From: Acidobacteriota bacterium
GTDB lineage: Bacteria; Acidobacteriota; Terriglobia; Terriglobales; Acidobacteriaceae
Assembly: GCA_018268755.1 (NCBI GenBank)
Contig: JAFDVW010000003.1
Span: 153,278 to 217,277 of the forward strand
Direction: 5' to 3'
Length of the DNA: 64,000 nt
Shown: in pieces, positions 19,258 through 60,257 of the stretch
Position numbering within the stretch: the stretch's first letter is position 1
How the letters are laid out: every line of letters begins with the position of its first letter
Notes under the pieces: generated by a model
What the model saw: only the letters and a program-made list of their open reading frames with translations
Databases searched by the model: none
Told to the model about the DNA's origin: nothing
Made by a program: the position numbers and the translations under genes

Positions 19258-19457
19258 CCGTTAGCCCTTGGCTGTTAGCTATTAGCTCGATTAGCTTTTC
19301 GCCGCTGCTACTGCAAATTCCTCGTCGCTACGCTCCTTGGAATGACAGAAAAGCCCGAATTTTTAGCGAGTGCTAGAGGTTAGAAGCTGAAAGCTAGCAG
19401 CTAATAGCTAACGGCCAACGACTAAGGACCAAGGGCTATGGCCAACGGCTAACGGTC
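19254..19457. repeat. Inverted TTAGC-word element, about 200 bases
   Basis: Two word-repeat arms face each other: GTTAGCTATTAGCT (19274-19287) and its exact complement AGCTAATAGCTAAC (19399-19412), extended by further GTTAGCC / GGCTAAC and GGCC-AACG words. The centre contains CTCGTCGCTACGCTCC and GGAATGACA, fragments of another repeat family. The element separates nuoI from aguA and slightly overlaps the last codons of both genes. Confidence 0.6.
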
Positions 19458-52818: not shown

Positions 52819-53595
52819 TCACTGCTGCTTAAAGCTGGCGTCCACCTTTTTGCTGTCTTTGGCGGCCAGGGTGACTTTCTGGTCCTGTTCGCCCAATTTC
52901 TCGTGTACGAAGGCCAGGGTGTAGTCTCCCGGGGGCAGGCCCTTGAGTTCATATTTGCCATCGGGGCCGGTGACGGCAAAGAACGGGCTCTTCACCACGT
53001 TGACGTACATCTTCATCCAGGGATGCTGGTTGCATTTGACCGGCAGCAGGATTTCCTCGCGGGCGAAAGTCTTTTCAATGGGAGCGGCTTTCGGCGGTTG
53101 CGATTCATTCCACTCGCGATTCGCCTGGGGTGTGGGGTGAATATTGTGCGTAGTGGGATCGGTGTTCTGGATCTCCACGTTCTGTCCGGTCATTACGCCG
53201 AGCACATGAGGGTGGTAGCGGCAGCCGTCCTGGTCAATGACCGCGGAAGTCTTGGGCACTTCAAAGGTGCGGTTGCCCAGACCTTCTTTCACATAAACGA
53301 AGACGTTGGCCAGGTTGCCGTTGTCGACCACCAGGGTTTCCACATTGTTGCTGCCCTTGCAGGCGGGGTCCTGGCTCATGTCGATCTTGGCCGGCTTGGG
53401 GGCGGCGCCATCAAACTTTACCGAGCCGCTCACCGATGCGGCCGTGGCGGGATCGATCGGCGTAGGCGCAGGCGCGGACGCCGATTCGGTGGCAGGTTGT
53501 TCTTCATTTGCGGCTTCTTTTTTGCTACAGCCGGCGAGCAGCCATAAGGCCAGCAGGCAAAGGCTGAGCAGTGCTGCCCAGGTTTTTCTATTCAT
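52819..53595 (-). CDS. Cupredoxin-like lipoprotein with carboxypeptidase-regulatory domain
   Basis: 258 residues. The lipobox is LLAGCSKK, so Cys22 is the lipidated N terminus. An Ala/Pro linker leads to a cupredoxin-like domain whose possible type-1 copper ligands are the His in DPTTHNIHPTP and Cys, His and Met in VKCNQHPWMKMYV. A beta-sandwich like carboxypeptidase regulatory domains follows (GPDGKYELKGLPPGDYTLAF). It directly follows the octaheme cytochrome gene in the same direction, so it may carry or receive electrons there. Confidence 0.8.
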   Translation of the reverse strand: MNRKTWAALLSLCLLALWLLAGCSKKEAANEEQPATESASAPAPTPIDPATAASVSGSVKFDGAAPKPAKIDMSQDPACKGSNNVETLVVDNGNLANVFVYVKEGLGNRTFEVPKTSAVIDQDGCRYHPHVLGVMTGQNVEIQNTDPTTHNIHPTPQANREWNESQPPKAAPIEKTFAREEILLPVKCNQHPWMKMYVNVVKSPFFAVTGPDGKYELKGLPPGDYTLAFVHEKLGEQDQKVTLAAKDSKKVDASFKQQ

Positions 53596-53653: not shown

Positions 53654-56600
53654 CTACGGTGACCCGCCACCGGTTGCGGAAGCATTGCCGTGCCAGGCTT
53701 GCTGATCTCGATTCCGCGCCGGACCCGCGGCGCGCGTGCGCCCCATGGCGCCGGCTACGCGATGCTGCTCCTCCGGCGTGAGCTGGAAGATGTAATCCAC
53801 GAGCAGCTTGCTGTGGTCGCGAGTGTAGCCCTGGAATGATGAGGGCGTCGGCCCGGCGAAGACCCACTGACTGTTTTCTCGCCGGAAAAGGCCCGAAGGC
53901 ATGGCGGTGCCGGGGCTGATGGCCTGGGGATCGAGAATCCAACGCTCCACCCAGTCCGGCTTCAGGCGTTCGCGGGCCAGCAGGAAATTGGGCGCGGTGG
54001 CGTGCAGATCGTGCGCATCATCTCCTGTGGCATGGCACTTCAGGCAAGGTGCGGCCGTGCTGGAGAACAGGCTGCGCGCCATGTCGGTTTCCTTCGCGGT
54101 GAGCGTTGGCACCTGCTCGGGCACATAGGGAATCGGCTGTTGCGAGAGCGCCTGGAAGAAGCGCACCAGCTTGCGCAGTTCGTTGTCCGAGAAGGAGAAG
54201 GTGGGCATGCGCACTTTGAGATAGGGCCGCACGCCATTGCGGTTGGTGTCAGTCGTGCTCAGCGCCGGGTTGCTGAGGAAGCGGCGCAGCCACTCGGGAT
54301 CGACGCGCGCGCCTTCGGTGAGCAGCTTGGGCGGCAGTTGCTCCTGCACGTCTTTGTACTGTGCCATGCCCATCAGGATGGTGCCCTGCCCAGGAATGAA
54401 CTGGTGACAGCCCATGCAGTTATATTTGCGAACAATCCACCAGCCTTCCTGAATGTCCTTGCGCGTATCGCTGGGGTTGTACTGGTAGCTGGCGGGCAGG
54501 GAGGTTTCCTGGCTGCCCAGCAAGAAGGTGGTGAGGGCGCGAATCTGCTCCTGGTCCAGGTGCAGGTTCGGCATGCGCAGCTTTTCTTCCTCGCTCTTGA
54601 TCTTGCCCTTGTCAAAGATCTCGGGCTCGGCCAGCTTATGCTCGAAGAATCCCTTGTGGTCGTACCAGGGGCCTTTGGCCGGGCCGCCCGGCAGGCGGGC
54701 CAGATCGTCGGGATTGGTGATGGGATCTTTCCCGCCGCGTTGCGCAGCTTCGGTATAGAGGGCGAAATCGAGGCGCTCAATCGGCTTGCTGCCTTCGACG
54801 GTCAGATCAGTGCCGATGCGTCCTTCCTCTTCAAAGCCGGAAATCTCGTGGCATCCGGCGCAGCCGAAGTGGCGAATCCACTTCTTGCCCTCATCTCTCA
54901 GCTTGGCATCATCCATGAACGAGGCATCGGCGTAGGAGGATGGTTCCTGTTTCTTCTGCGTGATCAGGTAAGAGGCGATATCCTGCGCATCTTCGGGACT
55001 TAGCCGCAGACTGGGCATGACGGTCATGTTCTGGACCTGCAGTTCGTGACCGTCATTGGGGCACTGGCTGTGCTGCAGGTCGAACTGATAGGGAAGGCCG
55101 TGTTTGGCGTAGTCTTCCGGGCCGATGTCCTTCTTTTCGTAGGGGCAGTAGGGCCGGGTGCGCTCGCGGGCGTTGTGGATCCAGCGCACCAGATAATCGT
55201 AGTTTGCCTTCTCGCCCACGCGGGTGAGGTTGGCGGCAAAGGTCCCGCCTTCGAGTTGGCTGCCTTCGCCGATAGAGTGGCAGGCCAGGCATCCGCGGGT
55301 TTCAAACAGTTCCTTGCCGTGGGCAGCATTCCCGGCTTTTTGTTTAGGCAGGGAATCGGTCAGCCCGGTTTGCCACAGATACGCCGAAATCGAATGAACC
55401 TGCTCGTCATTCAGGCGGAAATTCGGCATCTTGGTGGTGGGACGGAAGTCGGTGGGTTTCTTGAGCCAGACGGGAATCCAGTTCTTGTTCAGCTTGAGCC
55501 GGATGTCTTTCAGGTTGGGCGCAATCTTCTTCATGTCCTGCATCAGACTGTGGGAGCGGAAATCGAACTGCTGGACCTGCCCGTCAATCTTGCTGTTGGT
55601 CACGCGCAGCGCTATGGCTTGCTCATTGAAGCGGGTGGCTTCGGCGTTGGTCTCGGCGGTGTCGGCCTGCTTCATGAGCGAGGCCGATTGCTTGCTGTTG
55701 TCCTTTTTCTGCTGCTCGAGCAGCTTGATCTGCTGCGTCATCGACTGCAGCTCTTCCGGCTCTTTATCGTAGCCCTCATAGCGATGGCAGCCGTTGCAGC
55801 CCTTCTGCCGGAAAAGGTCTTTGCCCTCGCTGATGGTCCAGCCCACATCTCCGCTGACCAGCACCATGTCGGCGGCATGGCAGGTCTGGCAACCCGCCTC
55901 CACATTGGCTTTGGGGAACAGCGGCCACAGCCAGTGTTCGTAATTGCCGTGGGCCTTCTCCAGGCTGGTGGTGGCGCGCCCATTGCCCTGATGGCAAGGC
56001 GAACAACCGAATTTGTCCGGATCATGCACCTTGAGCAAATCGGTATCGGGATGGCTGACGAAAGCCTGGGCATATTCGTCCGGCTTCTTGTGGCCCTTCA
56101 GCGTCATGGCAGCCGCGGTGATCTTCAGCGGCTCGCGGATGCCCATGTGGCAGGATTCGCAGCGGTCCACGATGTTGGCGTCCGCTACGTTGATCTGCAG
56201 AATTTTCGGGTCCCAATCGGCATACTTCTTATGCAGGCCTTCGATCTGCGCCGGGGTGAGATCAACCATGTGGTCGGAGACATATTCGGCGAGTTTGGCG
56301 TTGGCCTCGGTGACCGGCTTTAAGGCTTCGCCCAGCTCGGCGCTGAGCGCCGTCCGCTGGTCGCGCAGCTGATTGTAGGTTTCTTCGAGTTGTCCGTAGT
56401 TGAATTGCTTTTTGCTGTGGTCGGGGAACTCGACTGTGGCCAGCTTTGCCTTATAGGCGTCGAGGTCTTTTTGCTTGTTCTTCTTGCCCGACGGGCTGGG
56501 ATCGGTCTCGATCTGATAAGTCAAGGCATTGGCATAGGCCCGGCGGTCGGTGAAGACATTCTGTACCGCCAGGATGCGGGCATTCAGGTCGCTGAGCTGC

Positions 56601-56911
56601 TTTTGGATGGCATCGACCCGGGGCTGCGCCCCCTGCCTGGCCTGCTTGTAGTTGTCCTCCAGCCGGGCGTAGTCGGAGCTCTGCGTAATTTCCTTTTGCG
56701 ATTGCTGCGACTTCGATTTCGCCGTGGTGAGGAAAGCGAGATAGCGGTCCTTGAATTCGTGCTGGAAGGCCTTCCAGGGGCGCTGGCCGAAGGATTCGTC
56801 CCACAAAGCCCAGAAGAGGGTGGCCAGCAGAATGGCCATCGCCACCACGTAGTGCACTGCATAGGACTTGGTTACAACCGGGTCCTGTTCGGGGATGGGT
56901 TGTTCAGGCAC
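53654..56911 (-). CDS. Octaheme membrane-anchored cytochrome c of a bc-type complex
   Basis: 1085 residues. One N-terminal membrane helix (VVAMAILLATLFWALW, residues 23-38), a coiled-coil stretch to about residue 210, then eight CxxCH heme sites: CESCH 251, CSPCH 303, CQTCH 341, CNGCH 372, CLACH 541, CAGCH 684, CMGCH 832, CLKCH 956. Each of the last five is followed by a MP motif (Met495, 632, 780, 902, 1004), so it resembles five mono-heme Met-ligated domains behind a three-heme head. The gene lies between cytochrome b and a cupredoxin lipoprotein gene, so it replaces cytochrome c1 or f. The helix anchors it to the membrane, with hemes in the periplasm. Confidence 0.88.
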   Translation of the reverse strand: MPEQPIPEQDPVVTKSYAVHYVVAMAILLATLFWALWDESFGQRPWKAFQHEFKDRYLAFLTTAKSKSQQSQKEITQSSDYARLEDNYKQARQGAQPRVDAIQKQLSDLNARILAVQNVFTDRRAYANALTYQIETDPSPSGKKNKQKDLDAYKAKLATVEFPDHSKKQFNYGQLEETYNQLRDQRTALSAELGEALKPVTEANAKLAEYVSDHMVDLTPAQIEGLHKKYADWDPKILQINVADANIVDRCESCHMGIREPLKITAAAMTLKGHKKPDEYAQAFVSHPDTDLLKVHDPDKFGCSPCHQGNGRATTSLEKAHGNYEHWLWPLFPKANVEAGCQTCHAADMVLVSGDVGWTISEGKDLFRQKGCNGCHRYEGYDKEPEELQSMTQQIKLLEQQKKDNSKQSASLMKQADTAETNAEATRFNEQAIALRVTNSKIDGQVQQFDFRSHSLMQDMKKIAPNLKDIRLKLNKNWIPVWLKKPTDFRPTTKMPNFRLNDEQVHSISAYLWQTGLTDSLPKQKAGNAAHGKELFETRGCLACHSIGEGSQLEGGTFAANLTRVGEKANYDYLVRWIHNARERTRPYCPYEKKDIGPEDYAKHGLPYQFDLQHSQCPNDGHELQVQNMTVMPSLRLSPEDAQDIASYLITQKKQEPSSYADASFMDDAKLRDEGKKWIRHFGCAGCHEISGFEEEGRIGTDLTVEGSKPIERLDFALYTEAAQRGGKDPITNPDDLARLPGGPAKGPWYDHKGFFEHKLAEPEIFDKGKIKSEEEKLRMPNLHLDQEQIRALTTFLLGSQETSLPASYQYNPSDTRKDIQEGWWIVRKYNCMGCHQFIPGQGTILMGMAQYKDVQEQLPPKLLTEGARVDPEWLRRFLSNPALSTTDTNRNGVRPYLKVRMPTFSFSDNELRKLVRFFQALSQQPIPYVPEQVPTLTAKETDMARSLFSSTAAPCLKCHATGDDAHDLHATAPNFLLARERLKPDWVERWILDPQAISPGTAMPSGLFRRENSQWVFAGPTPSSFQGYTRDHSKLLVDYIFQLTPEEQHRVAGAMGRTRAAGPARNRDQQAWHGNASATGGGSP

Positions 56912-56924
56912 CGAATCCTCCAGG

Positions 56925-57018
56925 CAGTCGTTCGTCTTTCGTCGTTGGCCGTTCGCCTCTTACTCATTCGCCGTTTTGGCAGCCGCCAACCAACGACAAA
57001 CGACCAAAGACCAACGGC
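56925..57018. repeat. Inverted CGTTGG-word element
   Basis: Left arm starts GTCGTTCGTCTTTCGTCGTT and the right arm contains CCAACGACAAACGACC and CCAACGGC, inverted relative to it. The element fills the gap between the octaheme and cytochrome b genes of one probable operon. It is the same design as 48441-48545. Confidence 0.6.
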
Positions 57019-57025
57019 TGGTTTC

Positions 57026-57955
57026 TCACACATTGAACCAGGGCGTAATCCACACGTACTTGATGTTCAGGGCCAGACGCAGCAGCATCTTGATGGGCAG
57101 GCCGATCATGGTCAGCATGAAAACCTGCATGACCGAGTACTGCAGCAGGCTCATACGCCGGTAATCTTTCGGGTTAAAGCGGCGGAAGAGCGCGTGCAAA
57201 AGGAATCCGCCGACCGCGAAATACCCCCCCACCACGACCGCGCCAAAGATTCCCTTGGCCCAATTCGAAGTAATGCCGAACAGGTCGGGCAGGTCGCGGT
57301 TTACCTCGTAGATCAGGCGATTGTGGTCCCAGGTCTGGCCCGGCCAGAACCACTGCCACCCTGGCCCGCGAATGAAGGTGCCGATGATGATCATCGAGAC
57401 CCACAAAACGATGAAGCCGAACAGGAACGTGCCGATGGCGAACTTGCGCTGCTTCCAGGTGTAATAGCCGCTGCCCATGGGATTGGTGTCGATGTAGGGA
57501 ATGACCATCAGCCCGATGATGATCAGCGTGGGCATGACTACGCCGGCGATCCAGGGATCGAAATACACCAGCATCTCCTGCAGACCGAGGAAGTACCAGG
57601 GCGCTTTGGCCGGGTTCATGGTGAGGTTGGGGTTGGCCGGCTCTTCCATGGGTGCGTTCAGCGTGAGCGACCAGACCATCAGGATGATGGTCACGATGAT
57701 GGCGGCCAGAAATTCCACGCGCAGCAGGAAGGGCCAGACATGCACTTCCTTCTGCCAGCCCGGCCGGAAAGGCCAGGTCTTGCGATGATGCGTCTTGGCG
57801 AGGACGGGGTCGGCTTCCAGCTCGGAGACAAGCTCGTCGTTGGCCTTGGCCTGCTTCCACGCCAGATAGCAGTAGAAGATCAGCAGCGGAATCAGGGCCA
57901 CGATCGGCACGTTGTCCGGCGTGGAAACGATGTCCCAAAGTTGTCGCCAATCCAT
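57026..57955 (-). CDS. Cytochrome b C-terminal part (subunit IV-like)
   Basis: 309 residues with about seven hydrophobic helices. The quinol-site motif appears as NPAKAPWYFLGLQEML where bc1 has PEWY; the PWY form is usual in non-proteobacterial b subunits. There is an unusual N-terminal helix (IVALIPLLIFYCYLAWKQ) before the conserved part and a long C-terminal part with three further helices. No heme-binding His pairs are expected in this half. It pairs with the heme-bearing protein at 58092 to form a split cytochrome b. Confidence 0.87.
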   Translation of the reverse strand: MDWRQLWDIVSTPDNVPIVALIPLLIFYCYLAWKQAKANDELVSELEADPVLAKTHHRKTWPFRPGWQKEVHVWPFLLRVEFLAAIIVTIILMVWSLTLNAPMEEPANPNLTMNPAKAPWYFLGLQEMLVYFDPWIAGVVMPTLIIIGLMVIPYIDTNPMGSGYYTWKQRKFAIGTFLFGFIVLWVSMIIIGTFIRGPGWQWFWPGQTWDHNRLIYEVNRDLPDLFGITSNWAKGIFGAVVVGGYFAVGGFLLHALFRRFNPKDYRRMSLLQYSVMQVFMLTMIGLPIKMLLRLALNIKYVWITPWFNV

Positions 57956-58091: not shown

Positions 58092-59015
58092 TCACCTTCG
58101 TGCCTTGTCTGCTTCCGCCGTCAGCATGACCGGCGCCGGGCCGGAGATGCCGCCGTCCTTCCTCACTCGCCAGAAATGCACAATCATGAAAATCGAAGCC
58201 ACAATCGGAATGCCGATGCAGTGCCAGATGTAGGAACGCAGCAGGGCATTCGCGTCCACAATGGAGCCGCCCAGTAGTCCAAAGCGCACGTCGTTGTATG
58301 GCGTCATGCCCAGTTGATGGCCGAACGGGCCTTCATGTCCCAGGCCGGGCGTAGCCCGGGCCATGTTGGTGCCCACGGTCACCGCCCAGAAGCCCAGCTG
58401 GTCGTCGGGCAGCAGATATCCGGTGAACGAGAGCAGCAGCGTCAGCACCAGCAGAATTACGCCTACGTTCCAGTTGAATTCGCGCGGCTTTTTGTAGGAT
58501 CCGGTGAGGAAGACGCGGAACATGTGCAGCCAGACGGCGATCACCATCAGGTGCGCGGCCCAGCGATGCATATTGCGCAGAATACGGCCGAAGGGAACAT
58601 CGTGCTCGAGGTAGAGCACATCGCGGAAGGCCTGCACTTTGCTGGGGTGGTAATAAAACATCAGCAGCACCCCGGTGAAGGTGAGCACGATGAACAGGTA
58701 GAAGGTGATTCCACCCATGCCCCAGGTGTAGCTGTAGCGCACGGCGTCGCGATTGATTTTGGCCGGGTGCAAGTGGAGGAAGACGTTCGACAACACGCCG
58801 AGCGCGCGGTTGCGCGGCGTGTCGTCGTGCTTATGGCGGAAGATCGAGGTGAAGACCTGGGTCTTGGTCGGGTCCTTCAGCCCTTCGATCTGCTCTTTCG
58901 CCTTGGCGGGAATGTCGGTCTTGAGCGACTGCAGGTCTTCCTGAATGCCGCTCTTGACCTTCTCCATCAGTCCGGTCTGGTTGCCGTTCTTTCCGTTCTC
59001 ATCTTCGATAGGCAT
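58092..59015 (-). CDS. Cytochrome b6-like heme protein
   Basis: 307 residues. Four membrane helices carry two bis-His heme b sites: the His pair in NMHRWAAHLMVIAVWLHMF (13 residues between) and that in WHCIGIPIVASIFMIVHFW (14 between), as in b6. The Qo-site region is in FNWNVGVILLVLTLLLSFTG. The N-terminal 75 residues are a charged soluble extension (QEDLQSLKTDIPAKAKEQIE). I chose ATG 59015 because GAGGA precedes it; starts at 59030 and 59033 are possible. Together with the C-terminal half and the Rieske protein it forms the quinol-oxidising core. Confidence 0.9.
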   Translation of the reverse strand: MPIEDENGKNGNQTGLMEKVKSGIQEDLQSLKTDIPAKAKEQIEGLKDPTKTQVFTSIFRHKHDDTPRNRALGVLSNVFLHLHPAKINRDAVRYSYTWGMGGITFYLFIVLTFTGVLLMFYYHPSKVQAFRDVLYLEHDVPFGRILRNMHRWAAHLMVIAVWLHMFRVFLTGSYKKPREFNWNVGVILLVLTLLLSFTGYLLPDDQLGFWAVTVGTNMARATPGLGHEGPFGHQLGMTPYNDVRFGLLGGSIVDANALLRSYIWHCIGIPIVASIFMIVHFWRVRKDGGISGPAPVMLTAEADKARR

Positions 59016-59056
59016 CGTGTCCTCGTGCATCATGACTGCGTATATCGTCAGTGCTT

Positions 59057-59095
59057 GCGTAGGGACAGCCGCCCTCGGCTGTCCATTTTGTAGAG
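59057..59095. repeat. GGACAGCC hairpin repeat, copy 3
   Basis: Arms GGACAGCC (59063-59070) and GGCTGTCC (59077-59084), loop GCCCTC, flanked by GCGTA and ATTTTGTAG. Inverted match of the 176-205 copy including the flank. It lies between the Rieske and cytochrome b genes. Confidence 0.65.
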
Positions 59096-59114
59096 ACATT
59101 GCAAGCAAAAGCTT

Positions 59115-60257
59115 CTACGTCGATAAGAACGCCCCCGGATCGTTGAACTGGGTGGGCTGTCCCTTCGGCCACTGGTAGAGCCGCGCCACATCGACGAGAA
59201 TTTGCCCGTCGGGCGCAAGCTCGACATGGGCGCGGTCCATGGGGCGGGGCGCCGGGCCCTCAAAGTTCACGCCCTCGCTGTCGTATCCGCTGCCGTGGCA
59301 GGGACATTTGAATTTGTTCTCACTGGGCTTCCAGTCCGGCGTGCAGCCCAGATGCGTGCAGCGCGCGTAGATCACGAAAATGCGGTCCGGCGTGCGGTCC
59401 ACCCAGATGCGGAATTTCTGCTGGAATTTGGTGTCGACCCCGAGACCGAAGTCCGAGGCATAGCCGATCTTGAAGCTAGTCGCGGGCTCAAACAGCGTGC
59501 GGGGCAGGAAGAAGCGAAAGAAAGCCAGGAACCATGCCACGAGAAAAGCTGCCACTGCGCTCCATACGAAACGCCGGCGCTGCTGGTTGACCGGCCCGTC
59601 TTCCGGGCCAACGGAAGCGACTCCGCCTGCCGCCGCAGCTTTCGAAGTTCCGACGGCCGGCGTGCCCACATAGCGAGTGGATTCTCCCGACCTTGCCACC
59701 GGCGGCGGGCCAGCCGGTGTAGCCGGAGCGGCCGCTCGCACCGCAGGCGCAGCGGCAGAAGCTGCCTGAGAAGCCGCGGTTGCGACCACAGGTGCGGCGG
59801 GAGCAGCCGCGGAAGTTTCGCCCAGCAGCGCCGTGATTTCGACGTCCGTGAGCGGAGGAAGATTGTTGCGTTTGCGCCGCGCTTGTTCCGCGGCGATGGA
59901 GGACTTGCTCCATTTTTTCCCGGCCGCGACTTGCTTGGCGACTTCGAGGCTTAGCCCCGCTGTACTCACAGCAGTTGCAGGGGGAACTGGGGCCGAGTCA
60001 AGAGGGGGCGCAGCGAGGGTGGCTGCCGGCGGCACGGCGGAAGCAGGGGATGCAGCAGGGACGCCGTCGCCGCGCTCCCAGGCCAGGGGCTCTCCCGCTT
60101 TGAGGTTGGCGATGTCTTCGTCGGTAAGGAGGGGAAGACCCGAGCGCTTGCGATACGCCTGTTCCGCAGCGATCACAGAAGCGTTGAGTGCCTGGCGTGG
60201 CCAGGCAGGAAGGCGGCCGCGAACTCCGGTGGTCGCGGTATTGGACTGGTCTGCCAT
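59115..60257 (-). CDS. Rieske iron-sulfur protein with a duplicated N-terminal motif
   Basis: 380 residues, about twice the usual length. The C-terminal Rieske fold binds [2Fe-2S] through CTHLGC (Cys300, His302) and CPCHGS (Cys318, His321), with Cys305 and Cys320 for the disulfide. The membrane helix is residues 229-250 (RFVWSAVAAFLVAWFLAFF). Before it lies an Ala/Pro-rich cytoplasmic extension with two copies of a 28-residue unit: SVIAAEQAYRKRSGLPLLTD (27 on) and SSIAAEQARRKRNNLPPLTD (119 on), each ending in an acidic DxxI. The repeat has no known function. The gene is the first of the bc operon. Confidence 0.9.
   Translation of the reverse strand: MADQSNTATTGVRGRLPAWPRQALNASVIAAEQAYRKRSGLPLLTDEDIANLKAGEPLAWERGDGVPAASPASAVPPAATLAAPPLDSAPVPPATAVSTAGLSLEVAKQVAAGKKWSKSSIAAEQARRKRNNLPPLTDVEITALLGETSAAAPAAPVVATAASQAASAAAPAVRAAAPATPAGPPPVARSGESTRYVGTPAVGTSKAAAAGGVASVGPEDGPVNQQRRRFVWSAVAAFLVAWFLAFFRFFLPRTLFEPATSFKIGYASDFGLGVDTKFQQKFRIWVDRTPDRIFVIYARCTHLGCTPDWKPSENKFKCPCHGSGYDSEGVNFEGPAPRPMDRAHVELAPDGQILVDVARLYQWPKGQPTQFNDPGAFLST

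Follow-up and report, generated by a model that had tools for sequence, protein, structure and literature searches.

An octaheme cytochrome c as the probable c-type subunit of a b6-type Rieske/cytochrome b complex in an Acidobacteriota bacterium

Most descriptions of complex III-type enzymes give them one or two c-type hemes. How does a protein with eight heme-binding sites fit into an operon that encodes a Rieske protein and cytochrome b? We analysed such a gene within a 64,000-nucleotide stretch of Acidobacteriota DNA (hereafter, the window). In our reading, the octaheme protein is very probably the c-type subunit of a b6-type Rieske/cytochrome b quinol-oxidising (complex III-like) complex, in the place held by cytochrome f or cytochrome c1.

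The octaheme gene, its operon and its family

The octaheme c-type cytochrome is encoded on the minus strand (53654..56911) by an ORF of 1085 codons, which runs from 56911 to 53654, starts with GTG and is preceded by GGAGG 5–6 nt 5′ of the start codon. The 1085-aa product carries eight CxxCH motifs and matches Pfam Cytochrom_C (4e-19), and its gene is present in a single copy in its own genome. It is the fourth of five genes on the minus strand, in the order: Rieske [2Fe-2S] protein (59115..60257; Pfam Rieske, 2.5e-8; motif CTHLGC...CPCHGS), four-helix cytochrome b6-like subunit (58092..59108; Pfam Cytochrome_B, 3e-40, and position in the tree), subunit IV-like protein representing the C-terminal half of cytochrome b (57026..57955; Pfam Cytochrom_B_C, 2.5e-6), octaheme cytochrome, and putative blue-copper (cupredoxin-like) lipoprotein with a CarboxypepD_reg domain (52819..53595; lipobox LLAGC, motif HN...CNQHPWM, synteny). 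A b6-type octaheme complex was recognized by a Rieske protein, a four-helix cytochrome b, a separate subunit IV and a c subunit within one operon, the last with eight CxxCH motifs and one N-terminal transmembrane helix, and all of these were found at this locus. The HN...CNQHPWM motif of the lipoprotein resembles type I copper ligands. As Pfam calls the copper domain in a relative (PF00127, 1.6e-6) and makes no such call in the window lipoprotein itself, the label 'blue copper' is one that we infer.

Several other features of the operon were observed. Subunit IV (57026–57955) carries KAPWY where bc1/b6f complexes have PEWY, and the same holds for the relatives checked. A long N-terminal extension of the Rieske protein (59580–60257) is rich in Ala and Pro and contains two copies of an IAAEQAxRKRxxLPxLTDxxI-like motif; in the first 40 relative loci, none of the ORFs was found to carry this motif. 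Between the genes for subunit IV and the octaheme protein (56925–57020) lies a 29-nt inverted repeat, rich in GTCGTTGG/CCAACGAC. About a dozen genomic sites share pieces of 25–33 nt with this repeat, and the window has similar stretches at 19414 and 48526; the repeat therefore looks like a dispersed palindromic element. Searches of the operon region gave no Rfam match and no promoter-like site.

Relatives of the octaheme protein number at least 577 in public genomes. The best 80 of these come from Acidobacteriota, Omnitrophota, Neomarinimicrobiota, Planctomycetota, Hydrogenedentota, Poribacteria, Bdellovibrio-like bacteria, Methylomirabilota and others, and the Rieske–cytochrome b6–subunit IV–octaheme operon recurs in Omnitrophota, Neomarinimicrobiota, Planctomycetota, Hydrogenedentota, Poribacteria and others. 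In the best 80 loci, the subunit IV gene stands directly upstream of the octaheme gene wherever the upstream DNA suffices (the exceptions, L048, L061, L090 and L096, have fewer than 300 bases of it), and eight hemes are present save in a few truncated or split loci. Octaheme matches were detected in 59 of 247 sampled genomes of the phylum of the window (E 1e-60) and in 120 of 294 genomes of Planctomycetota, the phylum of record L108 (E 1e-40). Two forms of the protein were distinguished: long forms of about 1010–1140 aa, whose gene is nearly always followed by the lipoprotein gene, and short forms of about 690 aa, which have eight hemes and no coiled coil and are mostly encoded in a Rieske–cytochrome b–subunit IV operon. 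A still shorter variant of the family, a 522-aa six-heme relative, was found beside Rieske and cytochrome b genes (L023, 5045–6610).

Candidate heme ligands and the five class I cytochrome c modules

The initial annotation had placed heme sites at residues 251, 303, 341, 372, 541, 684, 832 and 956, and an MP motif after each of hemes 4–8, at residues 495, 632, 780, 902 and 1004. All eight CxxCH motifs and all five MP positions were confirmed exactly. Based on composition, 0.009 CxxCH motifs are expected, and none of 20,000 shuffled sequences contained more than two; with the hemes held fixed, an MP in each of the last five segments occurred in one of 20,000 shuffles. The eight CxxCH motifs and M495, M632, M780 and M902 do not vary among 76 homologues; 75 of these extend to position 1004, and each has Met there. 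Three head histidines absent from the initial annotation, H287, H296 and H321, are likewise invariant in the 76 homologues. Together, the three His and five Met residues provide a candidate distal ligand for every heme, and three hemes would accordingly be bis-His and five His/Met, if these conserved residues bind the iron as their positions suggest.

With such ligands every heme would be six-coordinate, which suggests that the octaheme protein is an electron transfer protein and not an enzyme. A catalytic multiheme protein coupled to the Rieske/b complex, similar to nitrite reductase or the hydroxylamine oxidoreductase (HAO)-like octahemes, would also have eight hemes, and one anammox complex contains an additional HAO-like octaheme (PMC12954380); moreover, the short forms lose the Met of heme 8, where a site could open. 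However, an invariant distal ligand candidate stands at every heme of the long form, five hemes lie within class I cytochrome c domains, which have an electron-transfer fold, and the Pfam and NCBIfam matches are exclusively to electron-transfer type cytochrome c, with no match of the HAO or octaheme nitrite reductase type in either collection. We therefore regard a catalytic role as extremely unlikely. In the short forms concerned (L021–L030, L034 and L037; about 690 aa), M1004 is replaced, mostly by Glu, and several of them carry another Met about five residues on (RNMSDDD), so that the ligand of their heme 8 may be shifted or of another kind.

The segments that follow the head are five class I cytochrome c domains, an identity absent from the initial annotation, and the MP motif belongs to the general motif of this class. 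In modules 4–8 an N-terminal CxxCH, a C-terminal distal Met and the cytochrome c fold were all found, least clearly in module 6. Module 4 (55367..55840, minus strand; C372xxCH376/M495), which is split by a helical hairpin, matches solved cytochromes c at E 5e-8, and module 8 (53732..54097, minus strand; C956xxCH960/M1004) matches them at 1e-5 to 1e-6; these two matches are clear, that of module 7 (54146..54469, minus strand; C832xxCH836/M902; NorC, 0.0013) is weak, and module 6 (54515..54910, minus strand; C684xxCH688/M780), a diverged member assigned by hhalign to the other modules, has hardly any. The alignment of module 5 (54956..55345, minus strand; C541xxCH545/M632) with mitochondrial-type cytochrome c spans the full domain and places the MP Met on Met80 of the solved cytochromes c. 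By homology, the proposal that the MP Met residues serve as heme ligands is thus supported. In most close relatives, the insert that long forms have in module 5 (55046–55147; residues 589–622) contains two cysteines, C589 and C617 (YCPYEKK...SQCPNDGH), which may form a disulfide or a metal site.

In a structure search with the AF2 model of the whole window protein, the helical hairpin was dominant, so that most hits were unrelated coiled-coil proteins. A second model was therefore made from the cytochrome part of an orthologue (pLDDT 88.7, pTM 0.86). With this model, VIA-align, in a comparison covering mainly module 5, matched the module 5 region to SoxX and cytochromes c (Z 8–11.6, rmsd about 2–3.6 over 77–96 residues).

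The initial annotation had further read the MP segments as copies of one module, implying growth by domain duplication. When aligned to each other, the five modules are homologous, with E values of 1e-6 to 1e-32 in profile–profile comparison (hhalign). HMMs of the single modules scored the other modules at means of mostly 25–59 bits, the pair 6/8 alone being low (4–8 bits), whereas 25 segments from further class I cytochromes c encoded in this genome scored means of 5–8 bits (best, 25 bits). In a FastTree phylogeny, all modules separated from these further cytochromes c (support 0.76), and modules 6 and 7 were sisters across long and short forms (0.87). These results favour duplication. Separate recruitment of five common class I cytochromes c, with no duplication in place, could be suspected from the generality of the MP...L motif in this class, from the joint support of just 0.76 and from the remoteness of module 6 from module 8. 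This alternative is nevertheless rather unlikely, as the scores between modules are mostly far above those of the other 25 cytochrome c segments and modules 6 and 7 pair in both forms. Duplication in place, modestly supported by the tree, thus appears to be the more likely origin, and, from the same phylogeny, it appears to be older than the split between long and short forms.

Helical regions and the three-heme head

The octaheme protein has a single N-terminal transmembrane helix at about residues 18–38 (56798..56860, minus strand), the sole hydrophobic window above 1.6 and part of a model helix spanning residues 11–41. It is followed by a long helical region. Residues 40–210 had been described as coiled coil, which might act as a spacer from the membrane or mediate dimerisation. 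The AF2 prediction of residues 45–215 (56267..56779, minus strand; pLDDT mostly about 75–89) as long helices (45–76, 79–136, 140–159 and 163–215) agrees with a coiled coil. In the alignment, this region is missing from the short forms. A second helical hairpin that the initial annotation did not contain, residues 385–452 inside module 4 (55556..55759, minus strand; model helices 385–418 and 422–452), is specific to the long-form clade and is represented by a gap in the other forms.

Between the long helices and the modules lies the three-heme head (55865..56170, minus strand), with CxxCH at residues 251, 303 and 341 and the histidines H287, H296 and H321; it was assigned by a Pfam Cytochrome_C7 match (1e-6) and by conservation in the 76 homologues. 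The model of the window protein (76 sequences; pLDDT 71.8, pTM 0.66) is confident in the modules and poor in the head (pLDDT about 50). A search of solved structures with the head profile gave no convincing relative (best, 0.0038), and viral neuraminidase rows in its output were rejected as chance.

Proposed electron path and the nearest known complexes

In the mechanism that we propose, the N-terminal helix would anchor the octaheme protein in the inner membrane, with the remainder in the periplasm. Quinol would be oxidised at the Rieske/b site, with one electron reducing the low-potential b hemes and the second, high-potential electron entering the octaheme protein via the Rieske cluster; there it would travel from heme to heme until it reached a periplasmic acceptor, from which an oxidase would receive it. 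The acceptor might be the blue-copper-like lipoprotein encoded next, as the gene order suggests. The assembly of the complex, the heme-to-heme path and the lipoprotein as acceptor are all parts that we infer from the data above, and the direction of electron flow is an assumption. For a nitrite oxidiser whose octaheme operon is similar, reverse flow has been proposed, in which the bc complex of that organism lifts electrons from a high-potential donor into the quinone pool (PMC3578206). No genes for nitrite or iron oxidation were found next to the window operon, and for the window complex reverse flow seems unlikely.

A further alternative is a conduit for extracellular electron transfer, through which quinol electrons would leave the cell. 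Eight hemes and a large size would suit such a protein, and the cytochrome b and subunit IV match the models of Geobacter ExtP and ExtQ, below the cut-offs. On the other hand, the octaheme protein is anchored by an inner-membrane helix, a scan of the neighbouring genes identified no porin or outer-membrane cytochrome, and most of the carrier phyla are not known for extracellular electron transfer, which makes this possibility very unlikely. As regards the terminal steps of respiration, NrfD-type genes beside cytochrome c genes and COX1 genes were found elsewhere in the genome, and these are candidates for an alternative complex III with a caa3-type oxidase. Since the genome also encodes this candidate system, the octaheme complex need not serve aerobic respiration.

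Operons of this kind were already known. An operon with an 'atypical octaheme cytochrome c' was noted in 2013 in Nitrospina, Kuenenia and Methylomirabilis (PMC3578206), and a probable anammox counterpart has been modelled (PMC12954380). The bc-like operon of Nitrospina gracilis, likened here by its description only, combines a Rieske protein, a split cytochrome b and an octaheme, as in the window (PMC3578206). The Kuenenia complex Kustd1480–1485 shares with the window complex a b6-like cytochrome b, a separate subunit IV, a Rieske protein and a large multiheme c subunit with long helices (PMC12954380). In its AlphaFold3 model, published in 2025, the long helices of Kustd1485 reach halfway around the complex and its Rieske protein, the nearest c heme lies 26–28 Å from the membrane cofactors, and the hemes are grouped in twos and threes (PMC12954380). 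The helices of the window octaheme probably pack against its complex as well, while the linear heme array implied by the initial annotation finds no support by analogy with this probable counterpart.

A locus of the anammox type was found in a 4.41-Mb single-contig genome of Planctomycetota (L189), with genes for a Rieske protein, cytochrome b, an NAD(P) oxidoreductase with 4Fe4S motifs, subunit IV and a 956-aa octaheme; by this layout it would correspond to Kustd1480–1485. Its octaheme is homologous to that of the window (BLASTP E 1e-69, 24% identity) and carries the same three His and five Met residues, and a tree of cytochrome b places the window clade and this anammox-type complex as sisters (0.986). 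The two loci differ in that the NAD(P) oxidoreductase gene between cytochrome b and subunit IV is absent from the window operon, which for that reason is not of the Kustd1480–1485 type, and in that the copper-protein-like lipoprotein follows the octaheme only in the window operon. ORFs similar to the NAD(P) oxidoreductase were also found at L190 and L191.

Compared with better-known c subunits, the octaheme protein stands apart. Cytochromes f and c1 have the same role, accepting electrons from the Rieske protein, but they contain a single c heme and differ in anchoring and size; with eight heme sites, the window protein is not a canonical member of either. Actinobacterial QcrC, the diheme cytochrome cc of bcc complexes, likewise consists of tandem class I domains and is the c subunit of a Rieske/b complex. 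The NCBIfam QcrC model matched the octaheme weakly (1.5e-14, below the cut-off), and Foldseek aligned about 220 columns of the two; however, QcrC has two hemes instead of eight and lacks both the three-heme head and the coiled coil. ActA of alternative complex III is also a multiheme subunit of a quinol oxidoreductase, with a class I domain that aligns with module 5 (1.6e-6), but alternative complex III has neither a Rieske protein nor cytochrome b.

To these earlier descriptions, the present work adds the ligand set, the homology of the modules and the phylum-wide spread. More tentatively, and with considerable doubt, the octaheme family may be a third, phylum-spanning type of c subunit, in which five duplicated and separately tunable His/Met hemes serve distant or membrane-bound partners such as the copper lipoprotein without a diffusing cytochrome c, and in which the hairpins hold the mobile Rieske head. 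The three His and five Met residues are specific residues that can be tested. The Acidobacteriota complex is akin to the anammox complex for which NAD(P)H production has been proposed, yet has no NAD(P) module, and is thus a natural comparison for it. The octaheme family is widespread in poorly studied phyla. In many uncultured bacterial phyla, a c subunit with eight hemes and a constant set of candidate ligands appears to be a standard part of the Rieske/b complex.
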